From: Acidobacterium sp. S8
GTDB taxonomy: Bacteria; Acidobacteriota; Terriglobia; Terriglobales; Acidobacteriaceae
Assembly (NCBI RefSeq): GCF_009765985.1
Contig: NZ_LMUM01000022.1
Coordinates: 1 to 64,000, forward strand
DNA: 64,000 nucleotides
Direction of reading: 5' to 3'
The notes under the pieces were generated by a model. It did not search any database. It was given only the letters and a program-made list of their open reading frames with translations, and was not told the DNA's origin. Shown in pieces: positions 8,233 through 31,976 of this stretch; position 1 is the stretch's first letter; each line of letters starts with the position of its first letter. The position numbers were made by a program, and so were the translations under genes.

Positions 8233-8265
8233 TCTTTCATGTCGCTATGACTGGCGCAGAAAGGA

Positions 8266-8481: not shown

Positions 8482-8741
8482 ACCTCTACAGATGCAGGGG
8501 CTGACGCCCCTGCGCCCAACCATTGACAAAAGACATCAAAGGGGCTCTGCCCCGATCGCGCTCTCCAAGGCCGTTCGCCCTCCGGGTTTTGGCTCCCCCG
8601 CTGCGCGGTCCCCCCCAAAAAGCTGCGCTCGAAGACCTTTCCGTTTGCTACCCCCGCCTTCGCCAGGAGGCGTTCGGCATGTACATGCCGCGTTTCAACG
8701 CGGACGTGCGAAAGCAAAAGCCGACGAAGGAGCAAAAAGCG

Positions 8742-9695: not shown

Positions 9696-9783
9696 AACCG
9701 CAGCATCCTTTGTAACTCGTGGTTCAATCGAATGAGATCATTTTGGGGCGGGCACCGGCAGCTTCCGACACAGACCTGGGAAG

Positions 9784-10711: not shown

Positions 10712-11127
10712 GGTTGCTCCCCCTCTTCGTTGGCTTCGTTCTCCAGAAGCACTTCATCGGGAATATCCGATAGCTCTTCAGCCCGGTGCGCAAATTCCGT
10801 AAAAGAGAGATCGAAACCGATGCTGAGGCAGTAGAGAAAATAAAAGTCGGGATTAGGGTCTTTTCCAGCTTCGAGATCGCACACGAATTCAACCGGCACC
10901 TGGCTACGCTTTGCCAGCTCTTCCGGCGTCAGACCCTGCTCGTTCCGCAAAATGATAGAAAGAGCGGCATAAGCGGCAACAGCGCGTATGCTCCGCTCTT
11001 GCCTGTCAACTTCGAGAATTGCGTTGATGCCCTCCGCCGCCTCTGTCTGCGAAAAACCACGTTCGACGCGCAAAGCACTCAGAGACGCCCCTATGGCTTG
11101 GTTGAACTCCTCACGGCTGATCCTCAT
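10708..11127 (-). CDS. XRE-family HTH protein
   Basis: 139 residues. The central part LGTPEELAKRSQVPVEFVCDLEAGKDPNPDF-like region (here EQGLTPEELAKRSQV then VEFVCDLEAGKDP) is a Cro/CI-type HTH. It is preceded by a second, partial HTH-like stretch, SALRVERGFSQTEAAEGINA. The C-terminus is acidic. It overlaps the flanking genes by 4 bp at each end. The tandem half-HTH arrangement may let it bind two operator halves, which is speculative. No recognisable effector domain. Confidence 0.7.
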   Translation of the reverse strand: MRISREEFNQAIGASLSALRVERGFSQTEAAEGINAILEVDRQERSIRAVAAYAALSIILRNEQGLTPEELAKRSQVPVEFVCDLEAGKDPNPDFYFLYCLSIGFDLSFTEFAHRAEELSDIPDEVLLENEANEEGEQP

Positions 11128-11375
11128 ATTCCCTCAGTTTCCAGCTCGGCGAACTGTCGTTCCGCATAAAACCGCAATCCAGCGTAGAGGTTCTTCACCA
11201 GTTTGGCGTCATTCTTGAAAGGCACCCACCTGTCACCAATCAGGTCAATGCCTGCTCTTCTAGCCCATGCGTAGGCCGCCGTTACCATCAACTGTCTCGC
11301 GCGCTCTCCACTAATGCCGTGCATGGCTCCGATGGTCCTTTGCGATTCGCCGTCATGAACGAACTGCACCAGCAT
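11124..11375 (-). CDS. small HTH protein, possibly the shifted 3' part of the gene upstream
   Basis: 83 residues from ATG 11375. VHDGESQRTIGAMHGISGERARQLMV looks like a sigma-region-4-like HTH. The same frame remains open about 35 codons upstream of the ATG with coding-like residues (TPEGKQQFARAYR) but without a good start, and there it overlaps the end of the preceding ORF in another frame. Either a non-ATG start is used, or this is the natural C-terminus of the upstream gene after a frameshift. Confidence 0.5.
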   Translation of the reverse strand: MLVQFVHDGESQRTIGAMHGISGERARQLMVTAAYAWARRAGIDLIGDRWVPFKNDAKLVKNLYAGLRFYAERQFAELETEGI

Positions 11376-11884
11376 CCGGTAAGCCCGCGCGAACTGCTGC
11401 TTTCCCTCCGGCGTAGACTTCGGGGTGCTGTGGGAACCAAACTGAGGCGCGGCGTTTTGCGAGGGAGTATGTCTGCATACTTCTCACGGATGATGGTCAT
11501 AGGAGAGGGGTCCGGGGGAACTCGATTGGCTGGAAGCCGCGCAATCCGAGAACGTTGCCGCCAGTGGCAGTACGCTCGTTGCCTGATCCACTCCACAGCG
11601 TCTTTGTCAGACAGGCGTGGCGGCACTCGCAGGCCACACGCAACAGCCCATTGTTCGGCCAGAACTCGCGGACAAATGCTGAGGGCTTTGGCAAGCTGAT
11701 AGAAGTCGCGTTCCAGCAGATGAACCTTGCCAGCCACATATCGAGCGAGATAACGTTCCGTCACATCTCCTAGCCGCTTGCTTAGCTGTTCGTGAGAAAT
11801 ATCGCCACGCAACATTTCAATCTGCGTGAGCAGATGAACGCTGAAATCGCCTCGGATGCGCGGAGAATGTTGAGAGCCTCGCAT
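11288..11884 (-). CDS. HTH-like protein, first gene of the operon; C-terminal part may be out of frame
   Basis: Taken from ATG 11884 (RGSQHSPRIRGDFSVHLLTQIEMLRGDISHEQLSKRLGDVTERYLARYVAGKVHLLERDFYQLAKAL), 198 residues; an ATG at 11920 would begin inside a palindromic operator. The N-terminal ~70 residues suggest a DNA-binding fold. After about residue 140 the sequence becomes Ser/Arg-rich and overlaps the better-looking frame of the next ORF, so the real protein may switch frame near 11400-11450. I do not recognise a family for the middle part. Confidence 0.45.
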   Translation of the reverse strand: MRGSQHSPRIRGDFSVHLLTQIEMLRGDISHEQLSKRLGDVTERYLARYVAGKVHLLERDFYQLAKALSICPRVLAEQWAVACGLRVPPRLSDKDAVEWIRQRAYCHWRQRSRIARLPANRVPPDPSPMTIIREKYADILPRKTPRLSLVPTAPRSLRRRESSSSRGLTGCWCSSFMTANRKGPSEPCTALVESARDS

Positions 11885-11903
11885 GGCCAAGATGATCTCA
11901 TAG

Positions 11904-11945
11904 TTGATTATAATAATCAATTACTTGTATATAGTATTCATATAC
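11904..11945. promoter_or_regulatory. two palindromic operators in an AT-rich divergent promoter region
   Basis: TTGATTAT-A-ATAATCAA (11904-11920) is a perfect 8-bp inverted repeat. GTATAT-7-ATATAC (11927-11945) is a second. The stretch 11895-11960 is much more AT-rich than its surroundings and lies between the minus-strand operon and the plus-strand HTH gene at 11985. It probably holds promoters for both sides, controlled by one of the nearby XRE proteins. Confidence 0.6.
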
Positions 11946-11984
11946 TTGGGCTTATGCCGCTGCGCGTGTTAGCTTTCCCTTGTT

Positions 11985-12230
11985 TTGATTATCACGGGAA
12001 GACAATTACGGGCTGCACGCGCTCTGCTTGGCATGGAGCAGATTGAGCTGGCAAAGCGCGCGCGCGTGGCGATAGGGACCATTCGAAGGATGGAGTCCTT
12101 TGATGAGGAAGTTGGCGCGCGCACGTCAACGCTCTCTCAAGTGCAGAAGGCATTGGAAAAGGCTGGAGTCGAATTCCTAAACGACGGACAACCGGGCGTC
12201 CGGTTGAAACGCACTCCCGGAAAGGTATAG
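11985..12230 (+). CDS. XRE-family HTH regulator
   Basis: 81 residues from a TTG; an in-frame stop lies just upstream and no ATG or GTG is available. GRQLRAARALLGMEQIELAKRARVAIGTIRRMESFDEEVGARTSTLSQVQKALEKAGVEFL is a compact Cro/CI HTH, a stand-alone type common in proteobacterial and acidobacterial genomes. It is the first plus-strand gene after the palindromic operators, followed by the AbiEii remnant and the cas operon with no terminator seen between. It is the obvious candidate for a local repressor that could also affect cas expression. Confidence 0.8.
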   Translation: MIITGRQLRAARALLGMEQIELAKRARVAIGTIRRMESFDEEVGARTSTLSQVQKALEKAGVEFLNDGQPGVRLKRTPGKV

Positions 12231-12306
12231 GGACTAGATAGTTATCCTGCACGGCCTACGCCGGAGGTGGGACCGCCGTGGAGAGTTAAAGGGAGGTGGG
12301 CAGCGC

Positions 12307-12612
12307 GTGTCGCGTCACTACTACGATGTCTACCGGCTCCTGGCGTCGGAGATAGGCCGCAATGCAAGCGGAGAATCAGAGAGGGCTGAGGACTGCGTTC
12401 GACATGCGCGGATGTTCGTCAACCGGCCCGATCTTGACCTGGCGTCTGCCATTCCCGGCCGCTTTGCCCTGGCTCCGCATGACGGTATGCTTGCCGATCT
12501 GCGGCGCGACTACGATGCCATGTCCGGCATGGTGATCGGCCCAGTCCCTAGCGTGGATGAGGTGGTCGCGGCCATCGCAGAGCTGGAGCAGCGCATAAAC
12601 AGGGGGAACTGA
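12307..12612 (+). pseudogene. AbiEii/AbiGii-type nucleotidyltransferase toxin, C-terminal remnant
   Basis: 101 residues from a GTG with GGGAGG upstream. SRHYYDVYRLLASEIGRNA, then DCVRHARMFVNRPDLDLASAIPGRFALAP and LRRDYDAMSGMVIGPVPSVDEVVAAIAELEQRIN, matches the C-terminal third of AbiEii proteins. The N-terminal nucleotidyltransferase domain with its catalytic GS...D motif is absent, and there is no partner antitoxin. Only 3 bp separate it from cas3. It could still be translated and couple translation into cas3, but it cannot have the enzyme activity. Confidence 0.75.
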
Positions 12613-12615
12613 TCC

Positions 12616-15075
12616 ATGAGGAATAGAGCCTTCTACGCTCATTCCAAACTCGATTCCGATACGGAGCAGTGGCAGGAGCTGAGATTGCATCTTGCTTCCG
12701 TCGCAGAGCACACCTCATATCTGGCTGGAAAGATCAGGCTGGCTCATGCGGGAGAATTGATCGGCCTTGCACATGATCTTGGTAAGTACTCGGAGGCATT
12801 TCAACAGTACCTTCAAAAGGCTGCGGGTAATGCCGCAATGGAGATGGAGCCTGATTTCTCACTCAAGGGAAGTGTCGATCACTCCACGGCGGGAGCTCAG
12901 GTTATAGGAGCTGGGCTTGCTGGTGGCGGCGGAAGGATTGCGAGCCAGATGGTTGCCCTATGCGTTGCTTCGCATCACTCGGGTTTGATCGACTGTATTG
13001 CGCCCGATGGAGTGGACGTACTAACCCGCAGGCTCCAGAAGGATGGTGCCTTGAGTCACCGTGACGAGGCATGGAGAAGAGTTGAACAAACAATACGCGG
13101 TCGTCTGGAAATATTGCTCAATAGCCCGGATGTTGCGAGTGAGATAGATGCGGCGATGCAGCGCATTCGTGAAAAAGACAGCGATGAGGTTATTCAGCCC
13201 TTCAAGCAAGGTTTATTGCTTCGGATGTTGTTCAGTTGCCTTATCGATGGAGACCGCGCCGATACAGCAGATTTCGATAAGCCCACGGCTGCCAGTTTTC
13301 GGCAACATGGTAAGTATGCTTCGTGGCAGGAGCTTATCGACCGGCTAGAACTCAAATTGGCTGCGTTCTCGAATGAACGGTGGGTCGATCAGCTTCGATT
13401 CAAAATTTCCAGTTATTGCTTGGCAGCATCGGAACGTCCGAAGGGGGTCTTTACTCTTACCGTTCCAACGGGAGGAGGCAAAACGTTAGCCAGCCTGCGT
13501 TTTGCGTTGCACCATTCGCTGCGCTGGAATATGGATCGCATCATTTATGTCAGCCCATACATCTCCATCGCGGACCAGAACGCGGAGGTAGTACGGAAGA
13601 TTCTGGAACCAGATGGCTACAATTATGCCTCCATCGTACTTGAACACCATTCCAGTCTTACACCCGACAAAGAGAGTTGGCGAGGATCGGTGTTGGCAGA
13701 GAATTGGGATGCGCCAGTGGTTTTTACTACAGCAGTGCAGGTGCTCGAAGCACTCTTCGGTGGTGGTACACGCTCTGCTCGGAGACTTCATGCTTTCGCC
13801 AATGCCGTCCTTGTCTTCGATGAAGTGCAGACGTTACCAGTACGCATGATTCATATGTTCAACAACGCTATGAATTTTTTGGTAGAACAGTGTGGCGCGA
13901 GCGTTGTGTTGTGTACCGCGACACAGCCACTCCTCCATCGTGTAGATAGAGGGAAAGGAGAAATGCGGCTCACGGAGGATGCCGAGCTAATGCGGGATGC
14001 CCCTCAGCTTTTCCGTGACCTGAAACGGTACGAGACGTTCGACAAGTCGAACGAGCCGGGTGCTTGGAGCGCGGCGAAGGTAAGCGATCTAGCAGTCGAG
14101 GAGCTGTCTGGCAATGGAAGTTGCCTTGTCATTGTTAACACAAAGCGTGACGCAAAGGACATCTACATGGCTTGTAAGGAGCGACTAAACGCCTTGGGTG
14201 ACCCGATGGAAGAGGGCTGCTTTGTTCACCTGAGTACTCGTATGTGTCCTGCACATCGCCTTGAGGTCTTAGACAGAATGAAGGCGGCGCTAGTTCAGAA
14301 AAAGCACGTACTCTGCGTCAGTACGCAGTTGATTGAGGCTGGCGTGGACATTGACTTTGCCACCGTGGTGCGGGATCTGGCTGGACTGGATTCCATCGCG
14401 CAGGCTGCGGGTAGATGTAATCGTAATGGCGACCGTGCAAACGGGAGGGTACATATTGTAAAGATGGCAGAGCCGCTACCGAAGCAGTTGGAAGAGATTC
14501 GGTGCGCCCAGCAAAATGCTCGGCGTGTGCTGGAAGACTGGAGAGACGACCAGGGCGATGCGCCCTTCCCGTTGTCAGACCCACTCCAGATGGAACGATT
14601 TTTCGGCCATCACTTCTTTGCACGTAGAGATCAGATGGATTATCCAGTGAAGGCACAGCGGGACGACACCCTGCTCCAAATGCTAGGTGAGAATGGGATG
14701 GCCGTCGCGGATTCAAGACTGGCAGGCGTGAAGCGGCATGGTTTCATGCAGTCATTTGCTAGCGCGGCCAGAGAATTTCGCGTAATAGATAACCAGATGC
14801 AAGGGATTATTGTTCCGTTCGGTGCGGAGGGGAAGAATTTGGTTGCAGCCCTTAGCGCCGCACGCGATCTCGCAGTAGAGTTTCAACTACTAAGAAAAGC
14901 GCAACGGTTCGCTGTCAATACATTTCAATGGGAGATGGATTCTCTGACTCGTAGTGGGGCTATCTATGAGGTTCAGGCGGGTACTGGTGTGTTTTGCTTG
15001 CTGGAGGAATTTTATTCGGATGAGTTCGGCCTGACGCTCGACGGCAGCGGAAGAATGGAGAGCATGATTGCATAA
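12616..15075 (+). CDS. cas3: CRISPR-associated nuclease-helicase Cas3 (type I-C)
   Basis: Degrades target DNA recruited by the I-C Cascade: the HD domain nicks and the helicase unwinds 3' to 5'. 819 residues. HD nuclease motifs are AEHT (H32), GLAHDLGK (H53-D54) and ASHHSG (around 118). The superfamily 2 helicase has VPTGGGKT (about 283-290), DEVQ (about 402-405), the [13 protein letters not shown] motif and [16 protein letters not shown] before the ATG lies in the end of the AbiEii remnant. It is first in the standard I-C order and overlaps cas5c by 8 bp. All core residues look intact. Confidence 0.97.
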
Positions 15076-15844
15076 CACGGCAAAGAATACGATTGAGTTT
15101 CGCGTCTGGGGACGGTACGCCATGTTTACCGATCCGCTTACCCGTGTGGGCGGGGAGAAGTGCTCTTACCATCTGCCGACGTATGAAGCCTTGAAGGGTA
15201 TCGCAAAGAGTATCTACTGGAAGCCTACCTTCATCTGGTACATCGACCAGGTAAGAGTGATGAAGCGCATTCGCACTCAGACAAAGGGTGTGAAACCGCT
15301 GGACTATGGTGGCGGGAATACGCTGGCGATCTATACCTACCTGACGGGCGATCCTGACTCGGAAGCGACAGAGCAACGAGTGGAGTATCAAGTTCGCGCT
15401 CACTTCGAGTGGAATCAACACCGTCCTGAGTTGGAACGCGACCGCAACGACGGCAAGCACTTCGAGATTGCAAAGCGCAGCCTCGAACGCGGCGGACGGC
15501 AGGACATCTTTCTAGGGACACGCGAATGTCAGGGCTACGTCGAGCCATGTGAGTTCGGTTCGGGCAGAGGCGAGTCTGACCATGACGGCGAGTTGCAATA
15601 TGGCTTCATGTTCCACAGCTTCGATTACCCGGACGAGACGGGCGAAAACCAACTCGCCAGCAACTTTTGGCGGCCAAAGCTGGTCAACGGGGTACTGTCC
15701 TTTCCGCGGCCCGATCAGATTCCGGCTGAACACAAGAAGGAGATACGCGCAATGATGCCGAAGATATTCGGCATTGAACAGAACCTCCGGTATGTCGAGA
15801 CCGAGGCGGAGCAATACGCCTCAATAGTCGGAGGTATAGATTGA
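15068..15844 (+). CDS. cas5c: Cas5c (Cas5d), pre-crRNA endonuclease of type I-C
   Basis: In type I-C systems, which lack Cas6, Cas5c cuts the repeat hairpin and stays on the crRNA 5' handle. 258 residues from a TTG that overlaps the cas3 stop. Typical features are the N-terminal ferredoxin-like strand ([16 protein letters not shown]), [20 protein letters not shown], and the C-terminal [23 protein letters not shown]. The GC-rich repeat stem of the neighbouring array is the kind of substrate this family uses. The coupled start (TTG within the cas3 end) supports co-translation. Confidence 0.96.
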
Positions 15845-17781
15845 GTTGGATTCAGAAGCTCTACGAGACCTATGATCGCTGCGCCGGCCAGCCGCAGTTC
15901 GATACGAACCCGCTGCCGCCTATCTCTGTGCGGCCTCAAAATACACAGATTTGTATCACCCTGAACGGCAAGGGTGATTTCAGGCACGCCGAGTTGTCCC
16001 TATTAGAGGACACATTAATCCCCGTCTCAGAGGCCTCAGCATCTCGTTCGGGTAGATCGCCAGCTGCCAATCCATTAGCGGATAAGCTTGCGTATTGTGC
16101 CGGTGACGGATCGAGGTATGGACTGAAGCGTGATTATTTTGATCGCCTGTGCAAGGAGCTGTCTGATTGGTGCAACTCGGAACACAGAGACACCAAAGCT
16201 TCAATCGTTCTCGAGTATATAAAGCGAGGCACCCTGATTGCAGATTTACTTAAGAGCGGCACCTTGACATTGAAGGATGAGAAGCTCGAACGTCTGAAAA
16301 TAAATGGAAAAGCGCTCGATCCCGATCAGGCATGGATACGCTGGAGGGTTGAAACGAACGATGAAATGGTTGCGAACACCTGGGAAGATCCGAACATCTT
16401 TTCTCGATGGGAGAGGTTCGAATCTGGCAAGCCTCACACTCCAAACCTTTGCATGTCATCGGGAACAAAGGGTCGTGTAGCGCGTCTTCATCCAAAGAGC
16501 ATTCGTGATAGCGGCGATCAAGCGAAACTAATCAGCTCTGACGATGATGAAGGCTATACATTCAAAGGTCGCTTCTTGAGCGGGGAGCAAGCTGCAAGTC
16601 TTGGATATTTCGCTTCACAGAAAGCTCATAGTGCGCTGCGTTGGCTTCTAGCACGACAGGGATATCGAAACGCAGACCAGGCTATCGTGGCTTGGGCCGT
16701 CGCCGGCAGCCCAATTCCAAGAGTAATTGCCGGATCGGATCAAATACGACCAATCGAAACGATTGCCTATGATGCTGACCCTCCAGAGCAAGTCGATAAA
16801 CCTCAGGCCACACTTCTCCCAGAGAGATACAAGGGTGACGCGGGACAGCTATTTGCAAAGCAGTTCAATAGCCTGCTCCGTGGCTATCGTGCAGCACTCA
16901 AGGATCGTGATGATGTTGTGGTCATGGCATTGGATTCAGCTACACCAGGCCGCATGGCAATCATCTATTATCGCGAGTTGCAGGCTTCTGAGTTTCTCGA
17001 ACGCATTCGCAGTTGGCATGAAAATACCGCGTGGATGATGAACTTAGGCAAGGATCGGCAGTTCGTAGGGGCACCGGCTCCTGAGGACATCGCAAGGGGA
17101 GTCTACGGGGCGAGGTTGATGTATGAAATCACTGACGGAGTAAAGAAGCCGAGCAAGCTCAGAAAAGCAACGGTACAGCGACTGTTGCCTTGCATCATCG
17201 ACGCTCGGCCAATCCCGCGCGATCTCGTCGAGACATGCTTCCGAAGAGTTACTAGACGAGTCGGCCTTGAGCGGTCGAAGAATGGACACGAAGAAGAAGA
17301 GTTCGAGTATTGCCTTGGCGTCGCCTGTGCGTTGGTTCGTGGAAGCAGAAGAGAGAGGAACTACAAGATGGCACTTGAAGAAGATCGAAACTCGCGGGAC
17401 TATTTGTTTGGAAGGCTGTTAGCCATTGCCGAGAAGATCGAGGGGTATGCGCTGTATCTTGCCAAAGAGACTCGTGGCACTACGGCTGAACGACTTATGC
17501 AGCGATTCTCAGACCATCCTTCCGCTACGTGGCGCACCATCGAATTAGCGCTTCGCCCTTACATGCAGCGTTTGCAGGGTAGCCGTCCAGCAGCACTCTA
17601 TGTCTGGAAGAGTTTGCTCGATGATGTCATTAGCCGTTTTCACGGAGACGATTTCACCCGACCGGGGCGACTCGATGCAGAGTTCCTGCTTGGTTATCAC
17701 TGCCAGCGTGCGGCCTTACGCTGGGATGAGTCAAAGAGTGAAACCAAAGAAGAGAGCAATCAAGAGCCGCAGCTAGTATAG
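15841..17781 (+). CDS. cas8c: Cas8c (Csd1), large subunit of type I-C Cascade
   Basis: The large Cascade subunit recognises the PAM and stabilises target binding. 646 residues from a TTG that overlaps the cas5c TGA by 4 bp. Csd1 marks are [13 protein letters not shown] at the start, [38 protein letters not shown], and the central [15 protein letters not shown] plus [12 protein letters not shown]-terminal helices include [28 protein letters not shown]. In I-C systems an internal start within this gene often also yields a small Cas11 subunit; an ATG at 17332-17400 (for example KMALEEDRN) could serve, but this was not tested. Confidence 0.95.
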
Positions 17782-17815
17782 AGTCGTCCACATTCAACCG
17801 CATAAGGAGAAGCCC

Positions 17816-18661
17816 GTGAGTTCGCTACAACACAAGATCGACTTTGCCGTTGTGCTTCATGTGAAGCACGCCAACCCAAACGGCGACCCACTGAATGGGA
17901 ATAGACCACGCACCGATTACAACGGTTACGGTGAGATCACCGATGTCTGCATCAAGCGTAAGTTGCGCGACCGACTCGTCGAAAACCGGCACAGCATCTT
18001 CGTTCAATCGGATGATCGAAAGAACGACGACGCAAAGAGCTTGCGGGATCGTGCGGAGAAGGCACTTGGTAATAAGTTCGGCTCCGGTGAGACTGCCAAA
18101 CTTGCAAGCGAGACCTGGTTCGATGTGCGCGCTTTCGGACAACTTTTTGCCCTACCCAAAAAAAGCAAGGCAAAAGGGCAGGACGAGGATGGTGATACAG
18201 GCGTGTCAATTCCAATCCGAGGACCTGTGACCATCCAGTCCGCGTTCAGTCTTGCGCCTGTGGACGTGACCAGCACGCAGATCACCAAGAGCGTCAGCGG
18301 CGATGGAGACGGCACAAAGCGTGGTTCGGACACGATGGGCATGAAGCATCGCGTCGATGAAGCGGTGTATGTTTTCTATGGCAGCATGAACCCACAACTG
18401 GCCGAACGCACGGGTTTCAGCGATGCAGATGCCGAAGCGATCAAGGAAATTTTGCCTAAGCTCTTCGAGAACGACGCCTCCTCAGCTCGCCCGGAAGGTA
18501 GCATGGCTGTCCTCAAGTTGGTCTGGTGGAAGCACAAGCCCGGTAAAATTGGTCAGTATTCCTCCGCAAAGGTCCACGGGACGCTTACTGTAAAGCCGGA
18601 TGGCACCTATACGTTGAACAATCTTGAAGGGCTTACTCCTGAGGAGATCGACGGCTTTTGA
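17816..18661 (+). CDS. cas7c: Cas7c (Csd2), Cascade backbone
   Basis: Polymerises along the crRNA as the Cascade backbone. 281 residues from a GTG with AAGGAG 6 bases upstream. The RAMP fold is evident from IDFAVVLHVKHANPNGDPLNGNRPRTDYNGYGEITDVCIKRKLRDRL, DVRAFGQLFA and VSIPIRGPVTIQSAFSLAPVDVTSTQITKSVSG, all strongly conserved in Csd2. It has its own good ribosome site after a 34-bp gap, consistent with higher expression of the multi-copy subunit. Confidence 0.97.
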   Translation: MSSLQHKIDFAVVLHVKHANPNGDPLNGNRPRTDYNGYGEITDVCIKRKLRDRLVENRHSIFVQSDDRKNDDAKSLRDRAEKALGNKFGSGETAKLASETWFDVRAFGQLFALPKKSKAKGQDEDGDTGVSIPIRGPVTIQSAFSLAPVDVTSTQITKSVSGDGDGTKRGSDTMGMKHRVDEAVYVFYGSMNPQLAERTGFSDADAEAIKEILPKLFENDASSARPEGSMAVLKLVWWKHKPGKIGQYSSAKVHGTLTVKPDGTYTLNNLEGLTPEEIDGF

Positions 18662-18686
18662 ATCAAAATAGATGGGAGTTCTGAGC

Positions 18687-19328
18687 ATGGCCGTCTTTAC
18701 CTCCGAAGCCGACGATGATGCGCTGCCGATCAGCGGGCTGCAGCATCTTGCATTCTGTCCGCGTCAGTGGGCTCTTATTCATCTTGAGCAGGTGTGGGTG
18801 GAGAACATTCGCACCGCCGAAGGCCGACTGCTGCATGAGCGCGCCGACCTGCCCGGAGAGAGTCGTCGCGCCAGCGTTCGCACGGTGCGCGGCATGTGGA
18901 TACGGTCAGAGAGACTGCGCTTGACAGGCCGTGCCGACATTGTGGAGTTCAGACCCGCGCCCTATCCAGTGGAGTACAAGCGCGGCAAGAGCAAACCCAA
19001 CGATTGCGATACGGTGCAGCTCTGCGCTCAGGGTCTTTGTCTGGAAGAGATGTTGGATACCACTATTGCGCGCGGTGCTATCTTCTATGGCAACCCGCGA
19101 CGACGGCTGGAAGTTGACTTCACATCGGAGTTGCGCCACCGAACGGAAGAGCTTGCGGCAACCATGCACCGTTTGTACCGAAGTGGCGTTACACCGGCTG
19201 CGACTCCGGGGCCTTACTGCCGCAACTGCTCACTGGTTGATGTGTGTCTTCCAGAGGCCACTTCTCACAATGATGTCGCCGCGCATTGGGTGACGCTACA
19301 ACTGCGCTCGCTACAGCAGGAGGTTTAG
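18687..19328 (+). CDS. cas4: Cas4 adaptation exonuclease (Fe-S)
   Basis: Trims prespacers and selects PAM during spacer uptake with Cas1-Cas2. 213 residues from ATG 18687, chosen over 18672 because GGGAG stands 10 bases before it. Cys24 (HLAFCPRQW) and the C-terminal cluster YCRNCSLVDVCLPE supply four Fe-S ligands. The RecB nuclease motifs are GRADIVEF and PVEYKRGK. It is placed between the interference and the adaptation genes, the standard position in I-C loci. Confidence 0.96.
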   Translation: MAVFTSEADDDALPISGLQHLAFCPRQWALIHLEQVWVENIRTAEGRLLHERADLPGESRRASVRTVRGMWIRSERLRLTGRADIVEFRPAPYPVEYKRGKSKPNDCDTVQLCAQGLCLEEMLDTTIARGAIFYGNPRRRLEVDFTSELRHRTEELAATMHRLYRSGVTPAATPGPYCRNCSLVDVCLPEATSHNDVAAHWVTLQLRSLQQEV

Positions 19329-19337
19329 TTCCGCCTC

Positions 19338-20369
19338 ATGCGAAAACTTCTCAATACACTGCATGTGATGACCCAAGGCTCATACCTGCACCGCGACGGC
19401 GAGACGGTCGCGGTCAAGGTTGGCGACGAATTGAAGCTACGCGTTCCAGTGCATACCCTTGAAGGGCTGGTGTGCTGGGGCCGCGTGTCGTGCAGTCCTC
19501 CGATGCTGGGGTTGTGTTGTGAGCGAGGTGTGGGAATCTCGTTTCTCTCCGAGCAAGGTAGCTTTATTGCCCGTGTGAATGGGCCTGTCTCCGGCAACGT
19601 ACTTTTGCGGAGGCAACAATACCGAATCGCCGATGACGGGATCAGTGCCCTTCCCGTCGTGCGAACTATCGTAGCGGCCAAAATTGCAAACAGCCGCGTT
19701 GTTTTGCTACGAGCAGCCCGCGAGGTCGTAGATGAAAAACGCGAGAAGGATCTGCGAGACGCGGCGAACCGTCTCTCCTGGGCGGGCTTGGAGGCTGCGA
19801 GGGCAGTATCCATTGACGAAGCGCGGGGACATGAGGGTATGGCAGGACAGGTTTACTTCTCGGTTTTCGATCAAATGATCGGCGGCGACCGAGAGGCGTT
19901 TCATTTTGGAGGACGCTCGCGTCGGCCTCCACTGGACCGGGTGAATGCGCTGCTTTCATTTGTATATGCGCTCTTACGTCATGACATCGAATCCGCCTTG
20001 GAGAGCGTTGGTCTTGACCCAGCGGTTGGTTTCCTCCACACCGACCGGCCAGGGCGTCCAAGTCTTGCTCTCGACTTGATGGAGGAACTCCGCGCTGCGC
20101 TGGCTGACCGTCTGGTGCTGACGCTCATCAACCGGCGTCAGATACAAGGATCGGGCTTTACGGAGGAGGACGGGGGCGGCATTCAGATGGACGACAACAC
20201 TCGCAAACAAGTCGTGTCCGCTTGGCAGCTTCGGAAGCAGGACGAGATTGAGCACCCCTATCTGAAAGAGCGCATTCCGCTCGGACTGGTGCCGTATGTG
20301 CAGGCGTTGCTCCTCGCACGTCATGTGCGTGGGGGCCTCGACGCCTATCCCGCTTTCTTCTGGAGATGA
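19338..20369 (+). CDS. cas1: Cas1 integrase (type I-C)
   Basis: Integrates spacers at the leader end of the array together with Cas2. 343 residues. Metal ligands are visible as E166 (ARGHEGMAG), H234 (VGFLHTDRPGRPSLALD) and the acidic pair D246/E249. N-terminal MRKLLNTLHVMTQGSYLHRDGETVAVKV is typical of Cas1c. It begins 9 bp after cas4. There is no sign of truncation, so with cas2 and cas4 intact the array could still be acquiring spacers. Confidence 0.97.
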   Translation: MRKLLNTLHVMTQGSYLHRDGETVAVKVGDELKLRVPVHTLEGLVCWGRVSCSPPMLGLCCERGVGISFLSEQGSFIARVNGPVSGNVLLRRQQYRIADDGISALPVVRTIVAAKIANSRVVLLRAAREVVDEKREKDLRDAANRLSWAGLEAARAVSIDEARGHEGMAGQVYFSVFDQMIGGDREAFHFGGRSRRPPLDRVNALLSFVYALLRHDIESALESVGLDPAVGFLHTDRPGRPSLALDLMEELRAALADRLVLTLINRRQIQGSGFTEEDGGGIQMDDNTRKQVVSAWQLRKQDEIEHPYLKERIPLGLVPYVQALLLARHVRGGLDAYPAFFWR

Positions 20370-20376
20370 TTCAATC

Positions 20377-20667
20377 ATGATGGTTCTTGTTAGCTACGAC
20401 GTAAGCACCCGCGACGACGCGGGACGACGCAGACTGCGCCGCGTGGCCCGGTTGTGCGAAGATCATGGACAGCGAGTGCAGAACTCCGTCTTCGAGTGCG
20501 TCGTGGACTCCGCGCAATGGGTTATGCTTCGGGCAAGTCTTGTGTCTGAAGCCGACCCTGCTCAGGACAGCCTCCGGTTTTATTTTCTCGGATCCGAATG
20601 GAGAAGACGTGTAGAACACGTCGGCGCAAAGCTCTCCTACGACCCTGAAGCACCCCTCATCCTCTAG
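20377..20667 (+). CDS. cas2: Cas2 (type I-C)
   Basis: Structural partner of Cas1 in spacer acquisition. 96 residues from the ATG at 20377, with TGGAGA upstream; the frame is open further upstream inside cas1 but family proteins start here. MMVLVSYDVST carries the conserved Asp (D8); RRRLRRVARLCEDHGQRVQNSVFECVV is the typical ferredoxin-like core. It is the last gene of the cas operon, followed about 90 bp later by a terminator-like hairpin and then the leader. Confidence 0.97.
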   Translation: MMVLVSYDVSTRDDAGRRRLRRVARLCEDHGQRVQNSVFECVVDSAQWVMLRASLVSEADPAQDSLRFYFLGSEWRRRVEHVGAKLSYDPEAPLIL

Positions 20668-20754
20668 TCGTGACAACCCCAAAGTCCATTCACGCGAACC
20701 CCAAGCGAGCACGGATTCTCTATAACATCCGCAGATTAGCTAAGCCCCTTGATG

Positions 20755-20779
20755 CCAAGAAGATACTCTTGGGTTTTTT
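20755..20779 (+). terminator. intrinsic terminator of the cas operon
   Basis: CCAAGA (20755-20760), a 6-base loop, TCTTGG (20767-20772), then G and six T. It separates cas transcription from the array leader, implying the array has its own promoter. Confidence 0.65.
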
Positions 20780-24809
<4,030 letters not shown>

Positions 24810-25115
24810 CCTCTTTGGTACACCTTGCCGGTTCCGTGCTTGCGCACGGGATTGACGCAACGACACGCCACCCCCAAACGGGATGCTGCCGGTAAACCGG
24901 CTTGAAGTCTTAGGCGGGCGACGTGAACGCACTTTGAATCAGCAGTTTGGTGATGCGTGCATCCGGCGTGGCGACAATGCGTTTACGTGTGTAAACGCGC
25001 AGAGCGCCTTACAGCGCCCAATGTGTAAACGCACTGATAAACAAAGGCTTTCAGCATACCGGCGCTTGACGGCCAAATCGCAGGGGTGCAAGCTATTTTC
25101 GAGGCGGGTTTTCCC
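24810..25115. promoter_or_regulatory. non-coding region with candidate oriT and operator repeats
   Basis: 306 bp between the last repeat and the relaxosome gene. It holds hairpins CCGTGC/GCACGG (24834-24849) and GCCGG/CCGGC (24888-24901), a perfect palindrome GCGTTTACGTGTGTAAACGC (24979-24998) and a second copy of its right half, GTGTAAACGC (25023-25032). In R388-like MobF systems oriT lies before trwA and contains inverted repeats and TrwA-binding sites. Function is inferred from position; no nic consensus was matched. Confidence 0.45.
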
Positions 25116-25541
25116 ATGAGCGCTCCCCGCATCCCGGCTCCGTTGCAGTCTCCAGCCTCACCAACCAGTGAAGCGCGTTCGGTTCTCCGTGCCAAAACCA
25201 TCGCAACCAGGGTAACGCCGGAAGAACTAGCCGAGGTAGAAACCGCCGCCGAAGGCGCAGGGAAAACCGTGGCTGAGTGGCTGCGCGAGCTTGCCCTGAA
25301 AGCCGCGCGGGAGCGTCCGGCAGACCCTACAGAGTTGATGCTGGCCGAGGTGTCGGCACTGCGATATATGCTCCTGAATCTCTTTCACGCGACGGCCCAG
25401 GCGAACGCCGAAGGCAAGCATCTGTTACCTGATTCCGTGCTCAAAATCCGTGACCAGGCCAACATGCGGAAGCTGGCCGACGCCCGAAAACTTCTCGCGG
25501 AGTTTCTGTCCCAGGAGGGACCGGACGGGGGCAAGCCGTGA
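25116..25541 (+). CDS. relaxosome accessory protein, TrwA/MobC-like (ribbon-helix-helix)
   Basis: 141 residues from ATG 25116. After a Pro-rich N-terminus, RAKTIATRVTPEELAEVETAAEGAGKTVAEWLRELALKAAR reads as a ribbon-helix-helix domain. The C-terminal helices (LMLAEVSALRYMLLNLFHATAQANA, IRDQANMRKLADARKLLAEFL) suit oligomerisation, as in TrwA and MobC-type proteins that bind oriT and repress their own operon. It overlaps the coupling-protein gene by 4 bp. The palindrome 24979-24998 upstream is a candidate binding site. Confidence 0.8.
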   Translation: MSAPRIPAPLQSPASPTSEARSVLRAKTIATRVTPEELAEVETAAEGAGKTVAEWLRELALKAARERPADPTELMLAEVSALRYMLLNLFHATAQANAEGKHLLPDSVLKIRDQANMRKLADARKLLAEFLSQEGPDGGKP

Positions 25542-27520
25542 GCCGCCCCATGCGTTTCCCAAGCCGGACGGGGCGGTTGTTCTGGTTCCTTTTCTGGCTT
25601 GCGTTGGGGCCGCTTGTGCTCATCTTCCCGGCTTCTGCATGGCTCTATTGGACGCTCGACCCACTCCAAAAGGTCTACCTTACGACCTATGCCGCCAGCT
25701 CCGTAGGGGCAGGGATGCCGCACAGCGAAATGACGATCCGATGGGTGATGAAGACCGCGCCCAAGCGGAAGGCGATACCCGCTTCCGCTGAGGATGTTGT
25801 TGCGGGGCCGGACCCGAAACTGCCCGTCAGCCTCTCGCCCAAAGCCATCTCCGAGGGCTGGCGTGGAGTGGCTTACAGCGCCCCGGAGAAAGTTCCCGTA
25901 GACAGTCTCGCCAAGGGATTGCAGGAGTATGTCTACGATGGCGTGAGCGTGTGGTGGCTGTTTGGTAGACCGATGCTCAACAGCCTTGCCGTGCTGATGC
26001 TGCTCTATGTGATTCGGGTTTGGATGAAGCAGCGAAACGGGCGACAGCGAGAGCAGGAGGAACGCCACGGACGCCGGACGAAAGGCCCGGAGCTGGCATC
26101 GGCTTTCGGGTGGCGAAGCGCAAAGACAGACGGCATCCGTTTCCGCTTGCGCTTCGAGAATCGGCTGTTGCAGTGGCTTCCCTTTGGCCCAGGCTACTGC
26201 ATTCCGAAGGGTCTGGAAGCGAGTCACATTCTGATGATGGGAGATACCGGCAGCGGAAAGTCGAATGCCATCCGGCAGCTACTTCGTCAGGTGCGGGAGC
26301 GCGGAGAGAGCGCCATCGTCTACGACCCGGCGATGGACTTTGTGAGCGAGTTTTATTCGCCCGCGCGTGGAGATTTAATTCTGAATCCGCTGGACCAGCG
26401 TTGCCCGTATTGGAGTCTAGGCGATGAGATCGACCGCGACGAAACAGCGGCGACCATCGCCGCCGCGTTCCTGCCGGAAAAGGAGTACGAGAAAGAATTT
26501 TTCACCGACGGGCCGCGCCGGATATTGGCCCATCTGCTCAAGCGGAGGCCGCAGCCGAGGGACATTCTGAGCATGATGGCCGACCCGTCGCGGATCGAGT
26601 ACGCGGTGAAAGGAACGCCGCTGGCCGCGCTGCTTGATGCGGGAGCACCAGCGCAGCGGGCGGGTGTGCTGGCAAGCTTAAACATGGTGGCCGACAGCTT
26701 AGAACTATTGCCGGAGTGGGAACATACAAGGTCGACCTTTGCGACGGCAGAGTGGTACACCGCGCGTAAGCGTTGGGTGTTTCTGACTTCCACTCCTGCC
26801 TATCGCGCGAAGATTTTGCCGCTGCATTCGGTGTGGCTCGATTTATTCATCCTTCGCATGATGGGCTACTGCGAAGACCAGACGGCGAAGCCGGTATGGT
26901 TCGTGCTGGATGAGTTGGCAAGCCTCAACAAACTGCCGCAGCTTCACACCGCCGTCACCGAAAACCGCAAGTACGGCAATCCCGTTGTGTTGGGTTTTCA
27001 AGGCCGCAGCCAGCTTGAGAAACGCTACGGCCAGGACGCCGAGGCGATGCTTTCGCAGCCTGCAACCAAGTTGTTTTTCAAGACCACCGAGCCACGCGCC
27101 GCGAAGTGGATTTCCGATGCCATCGGGGAAATTGAAGTGGAGCGGTTGAAGGAGTCGCGCAGCATGAGGCTGCTAGGCAGCCGGAAATCGTATGCAATGG
27201 AGATTGCCACCAAGCCGCTTGTCATGGCGTCTGAAGTCTCCGGCCTGGAGCCGTTGCACGGCTTCATCAAGCAGGAGAACCGCGTTGTGCCGGTTCACTT
27301 CCAGTTTGCAAAGAAGCACGGGGGACAACCGGAGTTCATCGAACGCAAGTTGCCGGTTGTGCCCAGGCCGTCACCCCCGACGCCGGTAGTTCGCACAGAG
27401 CAACCCAAATCATCGGCAGCGGTCCAAACCACTCTTCCACTTTTCGATGCGCCCGCTGACAAAGCCGCCGACAAACCCAAAGAGGCATTTGTGTGGGATG
27501 AGTCCAAGGGGATTGAATAA
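25538..27520 (+). CDS. type IV coupling protein, TrwB/TraD family
   Basis: A membrane-anchored hexameric ATPase that delivers the relaxase-DNA complex to a type IV secretion channel. 660 residues. There is an N-terminal membrane segment (about 14-37), a periplasmic loop, and a second segment about 143-162 (PMLNSLAVLMLLYVIRVW). Walker A is GDTGSGKS (about 235-242) and Walker B is VWFVLDELASL (about 451-461), followed by QLHTAVTENRKYGNPVVLGFQGRSQLEKRYG. The C-terminal ~80 residues are Pro-rich and probably flexible. No mating-channel genes are near, so it would act with a helper system. Confidence 0.95.
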   Translation: MSRPMRFPSRTGRLFWFLFWLALGPLVLIFPASAWLYWTLDPLQKVYLTTYAASSVGAGMPHSEMTIRWVMKTAPKRKAIPASAEDVVAGPDPKLPVSLSPKAISEGWRGVAYSAPEKVPVDSLAKGLQEYVYDGVSVWWLFGRPMLNSLAVLMLLYVIRVWMKQRNGRQREQEERHGRRTKGPELASAFGWRSAKTDGIRFRLRFENRLLQWLPFGPGYCIPKGLEASHILMMGDTGSGKSNAIRQLLRQVRERGESAIVYDPAMDFVSEFYSPARGDLILNPLDQRCPYWSLGDEIDRDETAATIAAAFLPEKEYEKEFFTDGPRRILAHLLKRRPQPRDILSMMADPSRIEYAVKGTPLAALLDAGAPAQRAGVLASLNMVADSLELLPEWEHTRSTFATAEWYTARKRWVFLTSTPAYRAKILPLHSVWLDLFILRMMGYCEDQTAKPVWFVLDELASLNKLPQLHTAVTENRKYGNPVVLGFQGRSQLEKRYGQDAEAMLSQPATKLFFKTTEPRAAKWISDAIGEIEVERLKESRSMRLLGSRKSYAMEIATKPLVMASEVSGLEPLHGFIKQENRVVPVHFQFAKKHGGQPEFIERKLPVVPRPSPPTPVVRTEQPKSSAAVQTTLPLFDAPADKAADKPKEAFVWDESKGIE

Positions 27521-27720
27521 CCGAAAACGCTTTTGCGACAACTTATCAAAATAGCTAAGGGTCTTGGGTAGTAGGATTTGACTTTCAGGGCAGTTCGGCG
27601 TAGTAATCGGACAGTACCTCTGTTTTTGCGTTCGAGGCAATTGGGCTTCGGCGTAGAGGCGGTGGGTGCAAATCCCAATGCGGCGTGCCATATTGATTGG
27701 CCGTTCGCGGAGAAAATTAC

Positions 27721-28899
27721 ATGGCCACTTTGCGTTTTTCCACGCATCAGTTCCGTTCTATTCCAGCGCCGAATGGCGACTCGAAATTCGGACTCTTCTT
27801 TACCCCCACCAACAACCTGCCGAGCGCCCTTTGGAATTGGCGTGCCGTCAACCCTCGCGAGGTCAACACCCGCAGCGGTGTCTATCGTGCTATTACACAG
27901 ACTTTGAAGGAAGAGCCGACAAGGTTTCATGAACGCAATCGCGGCATCACCATTGTGGCGAAGGAACTCCGCTTTGACGAGAGCCGCAAAGAAGCCATTC
28001 TTGAGCTGGACGACGAGAAGGTGCACGGCGTAGTCGATGGAGCGCATACCTTGAGCGCCATCATCAAAGCCCAGGAATCGGGTGATGCCATCGGTAAGGC
28101 ATACGTGTTCATCAAGGCGGTCGTCGGCATCGACGATGGCCAGATCGCAGAAATCGCGGGCGGCCTGAACACTAGCCAGCAGGTAGACCTCACGAGCCTT
28201 GAAAACCTACGCACGCACTTCGACGAGCTGAAGGCGATTCTCAAGAGCCAGCCTTATGCCGGGAAGATTGCGTACAAGATGAACGAAGACCTGCCCGTCG
28301 ATGTTCGCGAAGTCCTCTATTACCTTGCTGTGTTCGACCGCAGTGTGTACGACGAGAACCGTCATCCCGTTGCGCTCTTCGGTAGGAAGGAAGGTATTGT
28401 GCGGCGCTTCGCGGAACAGGCGACGGAGGAAAGCGACGAAGACTCGTTCCGCATCCTCATCTCGAAGGCACCGGATATCCTGCGGCTACGTGACCTGATC
28501 GAAAAGGCGGCGCTTGGAATGCCAGTTGGCCGTTACAAGCTCGGCAAGAAGCTCCGGGTGAAGAGTGACCCGAATAAGCAGAACGATTTGATTTTCCTAA
28601 ACGAGAAGATAGACGGCAAGATTCCGCTCGGATGGATGATGCCGATGCTCGCCGGGTTCCGCGCGAACGTTCAGTGGAACAAGCCGAAAGGCACGTTCTC
28701 TTGGATTGTGCCACTGGATGAGCTTGTACCAGCGTGCATCGAACAGTTAGTGAACGGCATTCAGGATGTGCACGCGCAGGAGAATAGCCGTCCTGAATAC
28801 GTTGGCCGTAACTCGATTGCTTGGCGCATGAGCTACAACGCAGTGTCGCAGGCCATTCTCCAGCGCGAGTTGACGAAGGCACGCCAGAAGAACAAGTAA
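27721..28899 (+). CDS. AIPR-family (abortive infection phage resistance) protein
   Basis: 392 residues from ATG 27721, with GGAGA upstream; an earlier ATG at 27697 lacks a site. The core FHERNRGITIVAKELRFDE, then VHGVVDGAHTLSAIIKAQESG and GGLNTSQQVDLTSLEN, matches the AIPR pattern (non-empty 'NRGITI ... vvdGgHT' core), which is also reminiscent of DGQHR/DndB proteins. AIPR proteins have been linked to phage resistance, but the mechanism of this branch is unknown. It interrupts the trwB-trwC pair and has its own upstream gap (27521-27720, no gene seen) and a downstream hairpin, so it is an independent cassette. Confidence 0.8.
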   Translation: MATLRFSTHQFRSIPAPNGDSKFGLFFTPTNNLPSALWNWRAVNPREVNTRSGVYRAITQTLKEEPTRFHERNRGITIVAKELRFDESRKEAILELDDEKVHGVVDGAHTLSAIIKAQESGDAIGKAYVFIKAVVGIDDGQIAEIAGGLNTSQQVDLTSLENLRTHFDELKAILKSQPYAGKIAYKMNEDLPVDVREVLYYLAVFDRSVYDENRHPVALFGRKEGIVRRFAEQATEESDEDSFRILISKAPDILRLRDLIEKAALGMPVGRYKLGKKLRVKSDPNKQNDLIFLNEKIDGKIPLGWMMPMLAGFRANVQWNKPKGTFSWIVPLDELVPACIEQLVNGIQDVHAQENSRPEYVGRNSIAWRMSYNAVSQAILQRELTKARQKNK

Positions 28900-28912
28900 A
28901 TATCAGGCGTAA

Positions 28913-28952
28913 CGTAGCGAGTGCGGAGCTGGTGGCTTCTGCACTCGCTACG
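28913..28952 (+). terminator. 12-bp hairpin after the AIPR-like gene
   Basis: CGTAGCGAGTGC (28913-28924) pairs perfectly with GCACTCGCTACG (28941-28952) across a 16-base loop. No T tract follows, so it may be a Rho-dependent or processing signal rather than an intrinsic terminator. Confidence 0.55.
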
Positions 28953-29048
28953 AAATCCAATCATTTATATCTCTAGGCTTGCGACTCAATTGATCGAAGG
29001 ATGGTTTCTTGCGCAGTGCCGCGTGTTAGTACGGCATAGAATCTTCCT

Positions 29049-31823
29049 ATGCTGACCATCTCCAAACCGCTGTCAGCTTCCCAGGTACGGACGTACCATG
29101 AGCGGGAGTTTGCGTCAGAGCGGCAGAACTATTGGAGCCGCGATCAGCAGGGACATAGTGAATGGCAAGGCAAGCTGGCCGACCAATGGGGTTTATCGGG
29201 CGCGGTTGGCAATGAGCACTTTGCGCGTCTGACCGAAGGCCAGCATCCGCACACGGAAGCGCAGCTTGTTCGTCATCAGGCTTCCAAAACCTACGAGGGA
29301 AAATTCGGCAAGGAAGTGACGAGCGTAGAGCATCGCGCCGGTTGGGATGCTACCTTCTCCGCGCCGAAGTCTGTTTCTCTCACGGCCCTTGTCGGCGGCG
29401 ATGAGCGCGTGCGAGAGGCGCATCGGGAAAGTGTGCGTGTTGCCTTGGCCGAATTGGAGAAGTACACGCAGGCCCGGATCGGCAACGTCCACGCGCCGGA
29501 GACGACAGGCAAATTTGTGGCCGCGACCTTTGAGCACGATACCGCGCGGCCTGTAGATGGTTACGCCGCGCCGCAGCTCCACACCCATGCTGTGATCTTC
29601 AACGTCACCGAACGCGACAACGGACAAACCCGCGCCTTGCAGCCGCAGGAGCTATTCGCGTCGCAGCGTGTCGCTACCAGTTTGTACCGTTCCGAGCTGG
29701 CGATGCGGTTACAGAGGTTGGGCTACGAGCTGGAGCGCGGCAAGCATGGGCAGCCGGAGATCAAGGGGTATACGAAAGAGTATCTGGAGGCCAGCAGCCC
29801 ACGCCGCGAGCAGATCAAAGATCATCTCCGCGAGATGGGGATAGACGGGGCGGGAGCCGCGCAGGTTGCCGCGCACCGGACGCGGGACAGCAAGGAGCTG
29901 CTATCGCCGGGAGAGGTATTAGAGAGGCATCGGAATCTAGCCGCGCAGTATGGACATCAGGCCGACCGGGTTGTGGCCGAAGCGCGTGAACGTGGACAAC
30001 GCCACGTTCACGAACCCGCGCTGAATCGGAGCACAGTGGCCGCGCAACAGGCCGTCACTTATGCCCGCGACCATCTCTTCGAGCGTTCCGCCGTGCTGGA
30101 CCGCCGCGAACTTCTGGAAGCCGCGCTCAATCGAGGTATGGGGGAAACGACGTATGCCCACATCCGGCAGGAGTTCGCACAGCGGACCGCGCGGGGCGAG
30201 TTCCGCACGGTCAATCATGCCGGAGCGGGACAGCAGTACACCACCGCCGCGATGCTTCGCATGGAACGTGAAATCATCACGCGGATGCAGGAAGGCAATC
30301 AGCGCGGGATGGGTGACCCGATGCTGGTTTCTCCGCAAATTCGGATTGCAACAGAGGATCATCACCCGGAGTTGAATAGGTCTCAGCGCGACGCCGTTGA
30401 CCAGGTATTTCTCTCCCGCGAAAAGATGGTGGGGTTGGATGGCGTAGCTGGCGCGGGGAAGACAACGACGCTGACCGTCATCCGTGAAGGAGCGGAGGCA
30501 CAAGGGTACAAGGTCGAAGGTTTCGCGCCTACGTCCCGCGCAGCGCAAAAGCTGGCCGATGCAGGCATGGAAACATCCACGCTGCAAAAACATCTTGCGC
30601 GTGGAGAAAAGCCGGACACCGGAGAACGCCGCCTGTATGTGCTCGATGAATCCTCGCTCGCATCCACCAAACAGATGCACGAGTTTGTGCATCGCCTGCA
30701 TCCGAACGACCGCGTGTTGCTGGTGGGCGACCGGAGACAGCATGAGGCAATCGAAGCTGGGCGACCCTTCGCGCAGCTTCAGGATGCGGGCATGAAAACG
30801 GTAAAGCTCGAAGAGATCGTCCGCCAGAAGAGCCCGGAGTTGAAACAGGTGGTCGAGCATCTTGCGAGGGGCGAAGTGCGCGAGGCGGTGCAAGGCTTGG
30901 AGCAGCAGGGTCGCGTCCATGAGATTCCAGAGCGTGAGAATCGCATCGCTGCGATTGCGACGGAATACGCGAAGTCGCCAGAAGGCACGCTGGTCGTCTC
31001 GCCCGACAATCGCTCTCGCGTGGAGATCAACTTAGCGATTCGCGCCGAGATGCAGGAGCGCGGTCAGGTTAGCAAAGAAGAGCATCCCATTGCGGCGCTT
31101 GTGCCGCGCCAAGACCTCACCGGGCCGGAGCGGACATGGGCCGCGCGGTATGAGTTCAATGATGTAGTGCGCTACGCTCGCGCGTCGAAAGAAACCGGCA
31201 TGGAGCGCGGGGAATACGCGCGGGTCAAGAGCGTTGACGCGGAGAAAAATCTGTTGACGGTGGTGCGGGCCGATGGCTCCGAGCTGACCTATGACCCTCG
31301 ACGGCAGCAGGGCGTTTCTGTTTACCGCGAGGAGCCGCGCAGCTTCGCCGTGGGCGACCGCATCCAGTTCACCGCACCGGCGAATGACTTGAAGATTGCC
31401 AACCGCGAATTAGGGACGGTCGAAGCCATCGGGCAGGACGGGCAGATGCGCTTGAAGCTGAACGGAGGCCGTGACGTGCAACTCGATCCACGCGAGCATC
31501 CGCATCTCGATCACGGTTATGCGGTGACGAGTCATTCCAGCCAGGGGCAGACTGCCGAGCGGGTGTTGATTCACGTCGATACCGAGCTGGCCGCAAAAGA
31601 CTTGCTCAACAGCCGCATGGCTTATGTCGCCGTCTCGCGCGGAGCCGAAGACGCGCAGATATACACCAACGACCGCGCGAAGCTGCCGGAGACATTAGGG
31701 CATGACGTGTCCCACGAGAGCGCCCACGCGCCAGCGATAAAACCGGAGCAATCCATCAAGCCGCCACAGCCAGAAATCGCGCCAGTCATCGAGCACGGCA
31801 TGGGCTTAGGACATAGCCTTTAA
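29049..31823 (+). CDS. MobF-family relaxase-helicase, TrwC/TraI-like
   Basis: Nicks oriT, stays bound to the 5' end and unwinds the plasmid strand for transfer. 924 residues. The relaxase domain has N-terminal Tyr16 and Tyr28 as candidate nucleophiles, HRAGWDATFSAPKSVSLTAL, and the three-His metal site H163 (FEHDTARP), H178 and H180 (PQLHTHAVIFN). The C-terminal SF1 helicase has GVAGAGKTTTL (about 464-474), LYVLDESSLAS, VLLVGDRRQ and the late motif YAVTSHSSQGQTAERVLIHVD. The protein looks complete. It is the last gene before the right end of the element. Confidence 0.96.
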   Translation: MLTISKPLSASQVRTYHEREFASERQNYWSRDQQGHSEWQGKLADQWGLSGAVGNEHFARLTEGQHPHTEAQLVRHQASKTYEGKFGKEVTSVEHRAGWDATFSAPKSVSLTALVGGDERVREAHRESVRVALAELEKYTQARIGNVHAPETTGKFVAATFEHDTARPVDGYAAPQLHTHAVIFNVTERDNGQTRALQPQELFASQRVATSLYRSELAMRLQRLGYELERGKHGQPEIKGYTKEYLEASSPRREQIKDHLREMGIDGAGAAQVAAHRTRDSKELLSPGEVLERHRNLAAQYGHQADRVVAEARERGQRHVHEPALNRSTVAAQQAVTYARDHLFERSAVLDRRELLEAALNRGMGETTYAHIRQEFAQRTARGEFRTVNHAGAGQQYTTAAMLRMEREIITRMQEGNQRGMGDPMLVSPQIRIATEDHHPELNRSQRDAVDQVFLSREKMVGLDGVAGAGKTTTLTVIREGAEAQGYKVEGFAPTSRAAQKLADAGMETSTLQKHLARGEKPDTGERRLYVLDESSLASTKQMHEFVHRLHPNDRVLLVGDRRQHEAIEAGRPFAQLQDAGMKTVKLEEIVRQKSPELKQVVEHLARGEVREAVQGLEQQGRVHEIPERENRIAAIATEYAKSPEGTLVVSPDNRSRVEINLAIRAEMQERGQVSKEEHPIAALVPRQDLTGPERTWAARYEFNDVVRYARASKETGMERGEYARVKSVDAEKNLLTVVRADGSELTYDPRRQQGVSVYREEPRSFAVGDRIQFTAPANDLKIANRELGTVEAIGQDGQMRLKLNGGRDVQLDPREHPHLDHGYAVTSHSSQGQTAERVLIHVDTELAAKDLLNSRMAYVAVSRGAEDAQIYTNDRAKLPETLGHDVSHESAHAPAIKPEQSIKPPQPEIAPVIEHGMGLGHSL

Positions 31824-31964
31824 GCTATGAATCGTCCCTGTAGAATGGTGTCTTGCGTTCGAGAAATGCACAGAAATCGAGAAATCGCCTGCACAGTTCC
31901 TACACAGCCAAAAACAGGCCATTTATCTCTCGATAAATCAGCAATTTCTAAAAATCTACTCACC

Positions 31965-31976
31965 CGCTCAGGATGA
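31965..31976. repeat. proposed right attachment core
   Basis: CGCTCAGGATGA, identical to 4021-4032 at the left end. The bases outside the 12-bp core differ between the ends. It lies 58 bp beyond the last of the three TGCACAG-like motifs. Confidence 0.5.

Follow-up and report, generated by a model that had tools for sequence, protein, structure and literature searches.

Cargo hotspots between core genes are already known from ICEs, phages and satellites. The SXT/R391 ICEs are described as having hotspots and variable regions with cargo at fixed sites between conserved genes (PMC2791158), P2/P4 phages and their satellites contain hotspots of antiviral systems (PMC9122126), and anti-defence islands occur in the leading region of plasmids (PMC11541004). 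Here we describe a cargo slot between trwB and trwC, seen in a 64,000-nucleotide window of Acidobacterium sp. S8 (NZ_LMUM01000022.1) and in its relatives. In the account of SXT/R391 cited above, to which we liken the slot by description only, cargo likewise occupies fixed sites of an integrated conjugative element; unlike what that account describes for this other element family, the trwB-trwC slot splits coupling protein and relaxase and has a promoter-like box for the relaxase. The P2/P4 hotspots share with the slot a fixed locus between core genes, fast turnover and diverse, often defensive genes, but their backbones are phage and not conjugative, whereas the cargo of the trwB-trwC slot is mixed, with defence or toxin-antitoxin (TA) genes in about 30%. 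The leading-region islands also have defence-related genes positioned relative to oriT; they enter first and are anti-defence, whereas the trwB-trwC slot, with its defence genes, is located on the lagging side, that of the relaxase. In the openly searchable papers we found no report of a cargo slot at this junction. Mobile elements of Acidobacteriota are little described, and a fixed, cheaply searchable position that is refilled with defence and accessory genes lends itself to a guilt-by-location screen for new defence genes. The slot also raises the question of how a mobile element copes with cargo that interrupts its transfer operon; here it apparently does so via a separate relaxase promoter.

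Results

Checks of the open reading frames and Pfam profiles showed four intact, co-directional genes on the + strand: a trwA-like (NikA-like RHH) relaxosome protein (25116..25541; PF21983, 3.2e-9), a trwB-type coupling protein (25538..27520; PF10412, 1.6e-83), an AIPR gene of 392 aa (27721..28899; PF10592, 9.8e-28) and a trwC-type MobF relaxase-helicase (29049..31823; PF08751, 3.3e-85; helicase PF13604, 2.8e-56). The trwABC operon of R388 has the same relaxosome protein, coupling protein and MobF relaxase in the same order and direction. In the R388 record (mobF 11227-14115, T4CP 14127-15650, TrwA 15652-16017) the slot is empty with a trwB-trwC gap of 11 bp, whereas in the window 1528 bp with one gene lie between trwB and trwC (27521..29048), so that the AIPR gene is the extra one. 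The module thus has the gene set and order of an R388-type MobF module except that trwB does not directly precede trwC, and the claim of the sequence-only reading, R388 order plus one additional gene at this junction, is borne out by the Pfam profiles and the R388 record.

The module forms the right end of an element of ~27.9 kb (4021..31976) that sits between ridA/pgk and gap (names by sequence recognition) and is bounded by a 12-bp direct repeat, CGCTCAGGATGA, at 4021 and 31965. It encodes a tyrosine integrase on the + strand (4181..5599, start uncertain, 4079 or later; PF00589, 7e-13), and it also has type I-C CRISPR-Cas genes, HTH regulators, ArdC and a toxin of HigB type. A complete type I-C operon with a long array occupies 12616-24810 of the window inside the same integrated element, the array being visible from ~21.1 to 24.8 kb. 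No T4SS genes were found among the open reading frames of the element; integrase, relaxase and direct repeats without a T4SS gene therefore make it IME-like (integrative mobilizable element). The repeat core CTCAGGATGA also lies 119-146 bp 3' of trwC in five relatives (L039, L044, L047, L048, L083), which supports CGCTCAGGATGA as the attachment core. The flanking repeat CGCTCAGGATGA resembles GACTTCGCTCAGGATGA, which we take to be a dispersed Acidobacterial repeat, and this likeness suggests that the integrase may target a repeated chromosomal sequence. Just outside the element, at 32014-32090 of the window, lies a repeat that is dispersed through the genome in about 40 copies. An Rfam scan of the element gave no match. 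Upstream of trwA, at 24978..25045, CGTTTAC boxes that are probably TrwA sites recur and mark a candidate oriT / trwA promoter region: across relatives, such boxes number 11.7 per kb upstream of trwA versus 0.19-0.26 in trwB, trwC and cargo interiors (45-60 times denser).

To survey the slot we searched the family with TrwC and TrwB and fetched the flanks, giving 49 distinct trwB-trwC pairs from Acidobacteriaceae elements; carriers with isolates include Terriglobus roseus DSM 18391, T. albidus, Edaphobacter lichenicola, Acidipila rosea and TAA 166, and in several genomes two or three of these elements occur together. Comparison of the pairs showed an empty slot in 12 (6-59 bp) and a filled one in 37 (483-11384 bp), with no pair at 60-482 bp. 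On the TrwC tree at least 7-8 changes between filled and empty states are needed (8 in all, of which well-supported branches force 7). Almost every tip has a different cargo, and two empty elements are among the closest kin of the window. Elements with a TrwC 90-95% identical to that of the window have unrelated cargo (a RelB/ParE pair, GDSL lipase with NIPSNAP, an aspartyl protease, glyoxalase with ASCH, NYN, or unmatched ORFs) or nothing at all, and yet in most close relatives the trwB 3' and trwC 5' flanks are 82-96% identical to the window right up to the slot, regardless of cargo. In six relatives it is only the first 600 nt of trwB that diverge from the window (60-72% versus 82-94%), with a breakpoint ~600 nt into the gene, and from this we conclude that modules recombine. 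The same cargo was also found on different backbones, namely the TA pair of L039 and L087 and the cargo shared by L040 and L079. No allele among the 49 pairs had slot ends with nothing between them. The trwB-trwC gap is thus a repeatedly refilled cargo slot in chromosome-borne MobF elements of soil Acidobacteriaceae: the elements are related and the flanks constant, but the cargos are not related to each other. The idea of a cargo slot, first proposed from the sequence of the window, is strengthened by these counts and contents; a slot mostly empty or holding transfer functions, which had been named as speaking against it, was found in neither form among the 49 pairs.

Motif analysis of the slot ends identified in the window a right-end motif (29023..29048, + strand) whose TAGAAT, a -10-like box, immediately precedes the ATG of trwC. 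TA[AG]AAT occurs in the last 75 nt before trwC in 30 of the 37 filled slots versus 0 of 12 empty ones, and in 0.6% of interior 75-nt windows; the box mostly reads GGCATAGAATCTCYCT followed directly by the ATG. As filled slots carry this conserved box, trwC apparently has a promoter of its own. The box resembles a -10 element with the start site at the ATG, suggesting that the trwC transcript may be leaderless; a sigma-70 scan found no full promoter. Four of the seven filled slots without the box have + strand cargo packed against trwC, which is possibly read through. A weaker motif lies 3' of the trwB stop, independent of cargo direction, and in the window it is a weak copy of cGTTTATgrGGACTTAT (27530..27547, + strand, score 11.5). 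The CGTTTAY box of this motif resembles the boxes that are dense upstream of trwA. A related box, CGTTTAY..AGG...TA.AAT, recurs at both slot ends. The counts of TrwA-type boxes at the slot ends are enriched but few (7 left, 3 right), a mere hint that TrwA might control the slot.

Cargo was annotated with Pfam and PADLOC. About 11 of the 37 cargos are defence or TA genes: SIR2 with HerA (L091), a type ISP/IIG restriction enzyme (L106), a NACHT protein with DUF5677 (L093), E1/JAB with multi-ubiquitin and an HTH-IrrE gene (L089), PDC-S06 (L063, E 3.5e-292), PDC-M19A and B (L092), PDC-S11 (L096), the AIPR of the window, and RelB/ParE or ParDE pairs (L039, L087, L109), the call in L039 being made by 77-86% identity to the L087 pair. 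CHAT (L085), DUF6119 (L053), DUF3800 (L090), NYN (L128) and DUF5677 (L047) are possible further defence cargos. The others are lipase, glyoxalase, beta-lactamase fold, TauD, GGDEF, proteases or ORFs without a match, and the slot of L098 holds tyrosine recombinase genes. No cargo of the 37 filled slots matched a transfer family in Pfam or PADLOC. As a chromosomal control, 26 ORFs of the window from outside the element matched three PADLOC families (mad3, BrxL, DolB; E<=1e-10), with one member each; the defence share of the cargos is above this background, in a small sample and a rough comparison. The enrichment in defence families that the sequence-only reading proposed to look for thus holds in part, the remainder being ordinary enzymes or unmatched ORFs, for which reason the slot is not defence-only.

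The AIPR gene starts at the first in-frame ATG, 27721, the listed start at 27697 being an upstream TTG that gives a 400-aa form. With 98.1 bits against a gathering score of 25 the protein belongs to the Pfam family, and the alignment shows NRGIT, HGVVDGAHT and LNTSQQV intact. In the 400-aa form the match begins at residue 51, which is about residue 43 of the 392-aa form, and AIPR is the only Pfam match, with no N-terminal HEPN RNase domain; it is a short stand-alone member. PADLOC matched the 400-aa form weakly to AbiU (1.7e-4, covering positions 253-370 of the 537 in the profile) and the ATG form gave nothing at 1e-4. As to a ParB-CTPase fold (the NTP-binding fold of ParB/DndB type), neither Foldseek against the PDB with an AlphaFold model (pLDDT 79.6, pTM 0.56; no match at E<=0.001) nor a PDB sequence search (nothing significant) found a relative. 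The gene has gaps of 200 bp upstream and 149 bp downstream, and 3' of it lies a 12-bp perfect inverted repeat, CGTAGCGAGTGC...GCACTCGCTACG (about 28913-28952, + strand; dG -33.2 kcal/mol, z -5.2). A canonical intrinsic terminator was rejected here, as the repeat has no T-run and is unlisted by the terminator scan. Stems of >=10 bp near the right slot end occur in 2 of 34 slots. Of the gap, ribosome site and hairpin that the sequence-only reading had assigned to the gene, the gaps and the 12-bp stem are real and the ribosome site fits, but the hairpin is private to the AIPR cargo. An integron gene cassette was likewise rejected, as the hairpin is not shared and the slot ends show nothing of attC type.

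The same AIPR was found in the slot of no other surveyed element, and in Acidobacteriota homologues at 1e-12 occur in 4 of 396 genomes, the window's included. Relatives of 27-35% identity are scattered in Acidobacteriota, Bacillota and cyanobacterial plasmids, and viral contigs; a scan of viral contigs with an alignment of closer AIPRs gave six loci. In L003 (309-2652) an AIPR homologue adjoins, by eye, a TIR-domain gene. The AIPRs of the Bacillota plasmids pEdBDGP3A (E. durans) and pLSW72_2 (L. sakei), 27-28% identical to that of the window over nearly full length, are like it stand-alone proteins of about 390-410 aa; they adjoin a lone HTH regulator gene, whereas the window's AIPR stands alone in the transfer operon.

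Discussion

Our results make it very likely that the trwB-trwC junction of an IME-like Acidobacteriaceae MobF subfamily is a cargo hotspot, which here holds a stand-alone AIPR. The slot interior has been exchanged repeatedly, whereas trwB, trwC and the short slot ends are constant; cargo would pass from one co-resident element to another chiefly when their constant flanks undergo homologous recombination. The box before trwC would let the relaxase be expressed though cargo, often opposite in direction, splits the operon; with the relaxase expressed from its own box, cargo insertion would therefore cost the element little. Going further, the slot could be a dedicated site whose built-in relaxase promoter makes inserts nearly cost-free, with the dozen-plus unmatched cargos enriched in undescribed defence systems, a proposal we put forward tentatively, at slightly below even chances. 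As for AIPR, the AbiU1/AIPR family is viewed as abortive infection toxins, AbiU-type members having an N-terminal region (PMC3506569), and by family membership the protein may be an accessory anti-phage (abortive-type) factor that aids persistence of the element in its host, where it would act alongside the element's type I-C CRISPR-Cas, HigB-type toxin and ArdC. The suggestion that expression with the transfer genes protects a new recipient at once is unsupported, since genes on the relaxase side typically enter the recipient last (PMC11541004) and filled slots have a separate promoter-like box for trwC.

One may ask if AIPR is a one-off insertion, the gap being no special site. The rarity of its homologues in the phylum and its absence from the slots of the surveyed relatives would fit, but an insert at the same place in 37 of 49 pairs, with conserved slot ends, refutes this for the window's element family and makes it highly improbable. 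An integron-like or site-specific cassette site, recombining at the hairpin and the slot-end motif, would account for the related box at both ends, for cargos of mostly one or two genes and for the recombinase genes of L098. Such a site is nevertheless improbable: the hairpin is not shared, stems of such length being found in 2 of 34 slots, attC-type repeats are absent from the slot ends, no allele has a single leftover end, and nearly all slots are without a recombinase.

The two other readings concern what the cargo does. Located between transfer genes, it could act in transfer or help to control it through entry exclusion or fertility inhibition, and AIPR could regulate transfer as DndB does the dnd operon; the N-terminal domain of DndB is placed in the AbiU1/AIPR family (PMC3506569) and DndB has been described as a repressor that depends on ATP (PMC12704722). 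The cargos, however, have no common family, many are opposite to trw, a quarter of the elements have none and no cargo matched a transfer family, and we consider such a role quite unlikely. AIPR might also be a selfish stabiliser of the element, a toxin or addiction gene and not an anti-phage gene, as the view of the family as abortive infection toxins and the RelB/ParE or ParDE pairs in three other slots would allow. Yet the slot contains no antitoxin-like partner, and the lone HTH gene found beside the small AIPR of two plasmid relatives is absent from it, so that this reading appears doubtful to us, though not remote.

The slot measures <=18 bp or overlaps in the Acidobacteriaceae plasmids pACIX903, pACIX905 and pACPOL1, a Novosphingobium plasmid and R388. 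Both pACIX903 and pACIX905 are typed conjugative and have empty slots; pACPOL1, also empty, is typed non-mobilizable and yet has VirB genes next to trwA. In a distant subfamily of TrwB, at about 42% identity, 12 further pairs have 32-274 bp between alignment ends and are again empty. As the plasmids, R388 and the distant subfamily are all empty, filled slots are known only in the window's TrwB subfamily; a Fisher test, which ignores kinship, was given no weight here. The window's own genome has a T4SS-linked MobF element (L180, reverse strand) whose slot is also empty (<=18 bp or overlap); OLD/UvrD-like genes, Gabija-like by eye, lie directly 3' of its relaxase. On the reverse strand of the same genome, genes for a cytosine methyltransferase, Vsr and a MORC-like HATPase come after a broken MobF relaxase (L181), by eye a likeness to a Mza-type defence locus. 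Finally, in L049, L051, L055, L065, L069, L071 and L072 a protein of 250-280 aa replaces the full TrwB upstream of trwC; it resembles only the membrane N-terminus of TrwB, has no ATPase part and possibly serves in docking to a foreign coupling protein.
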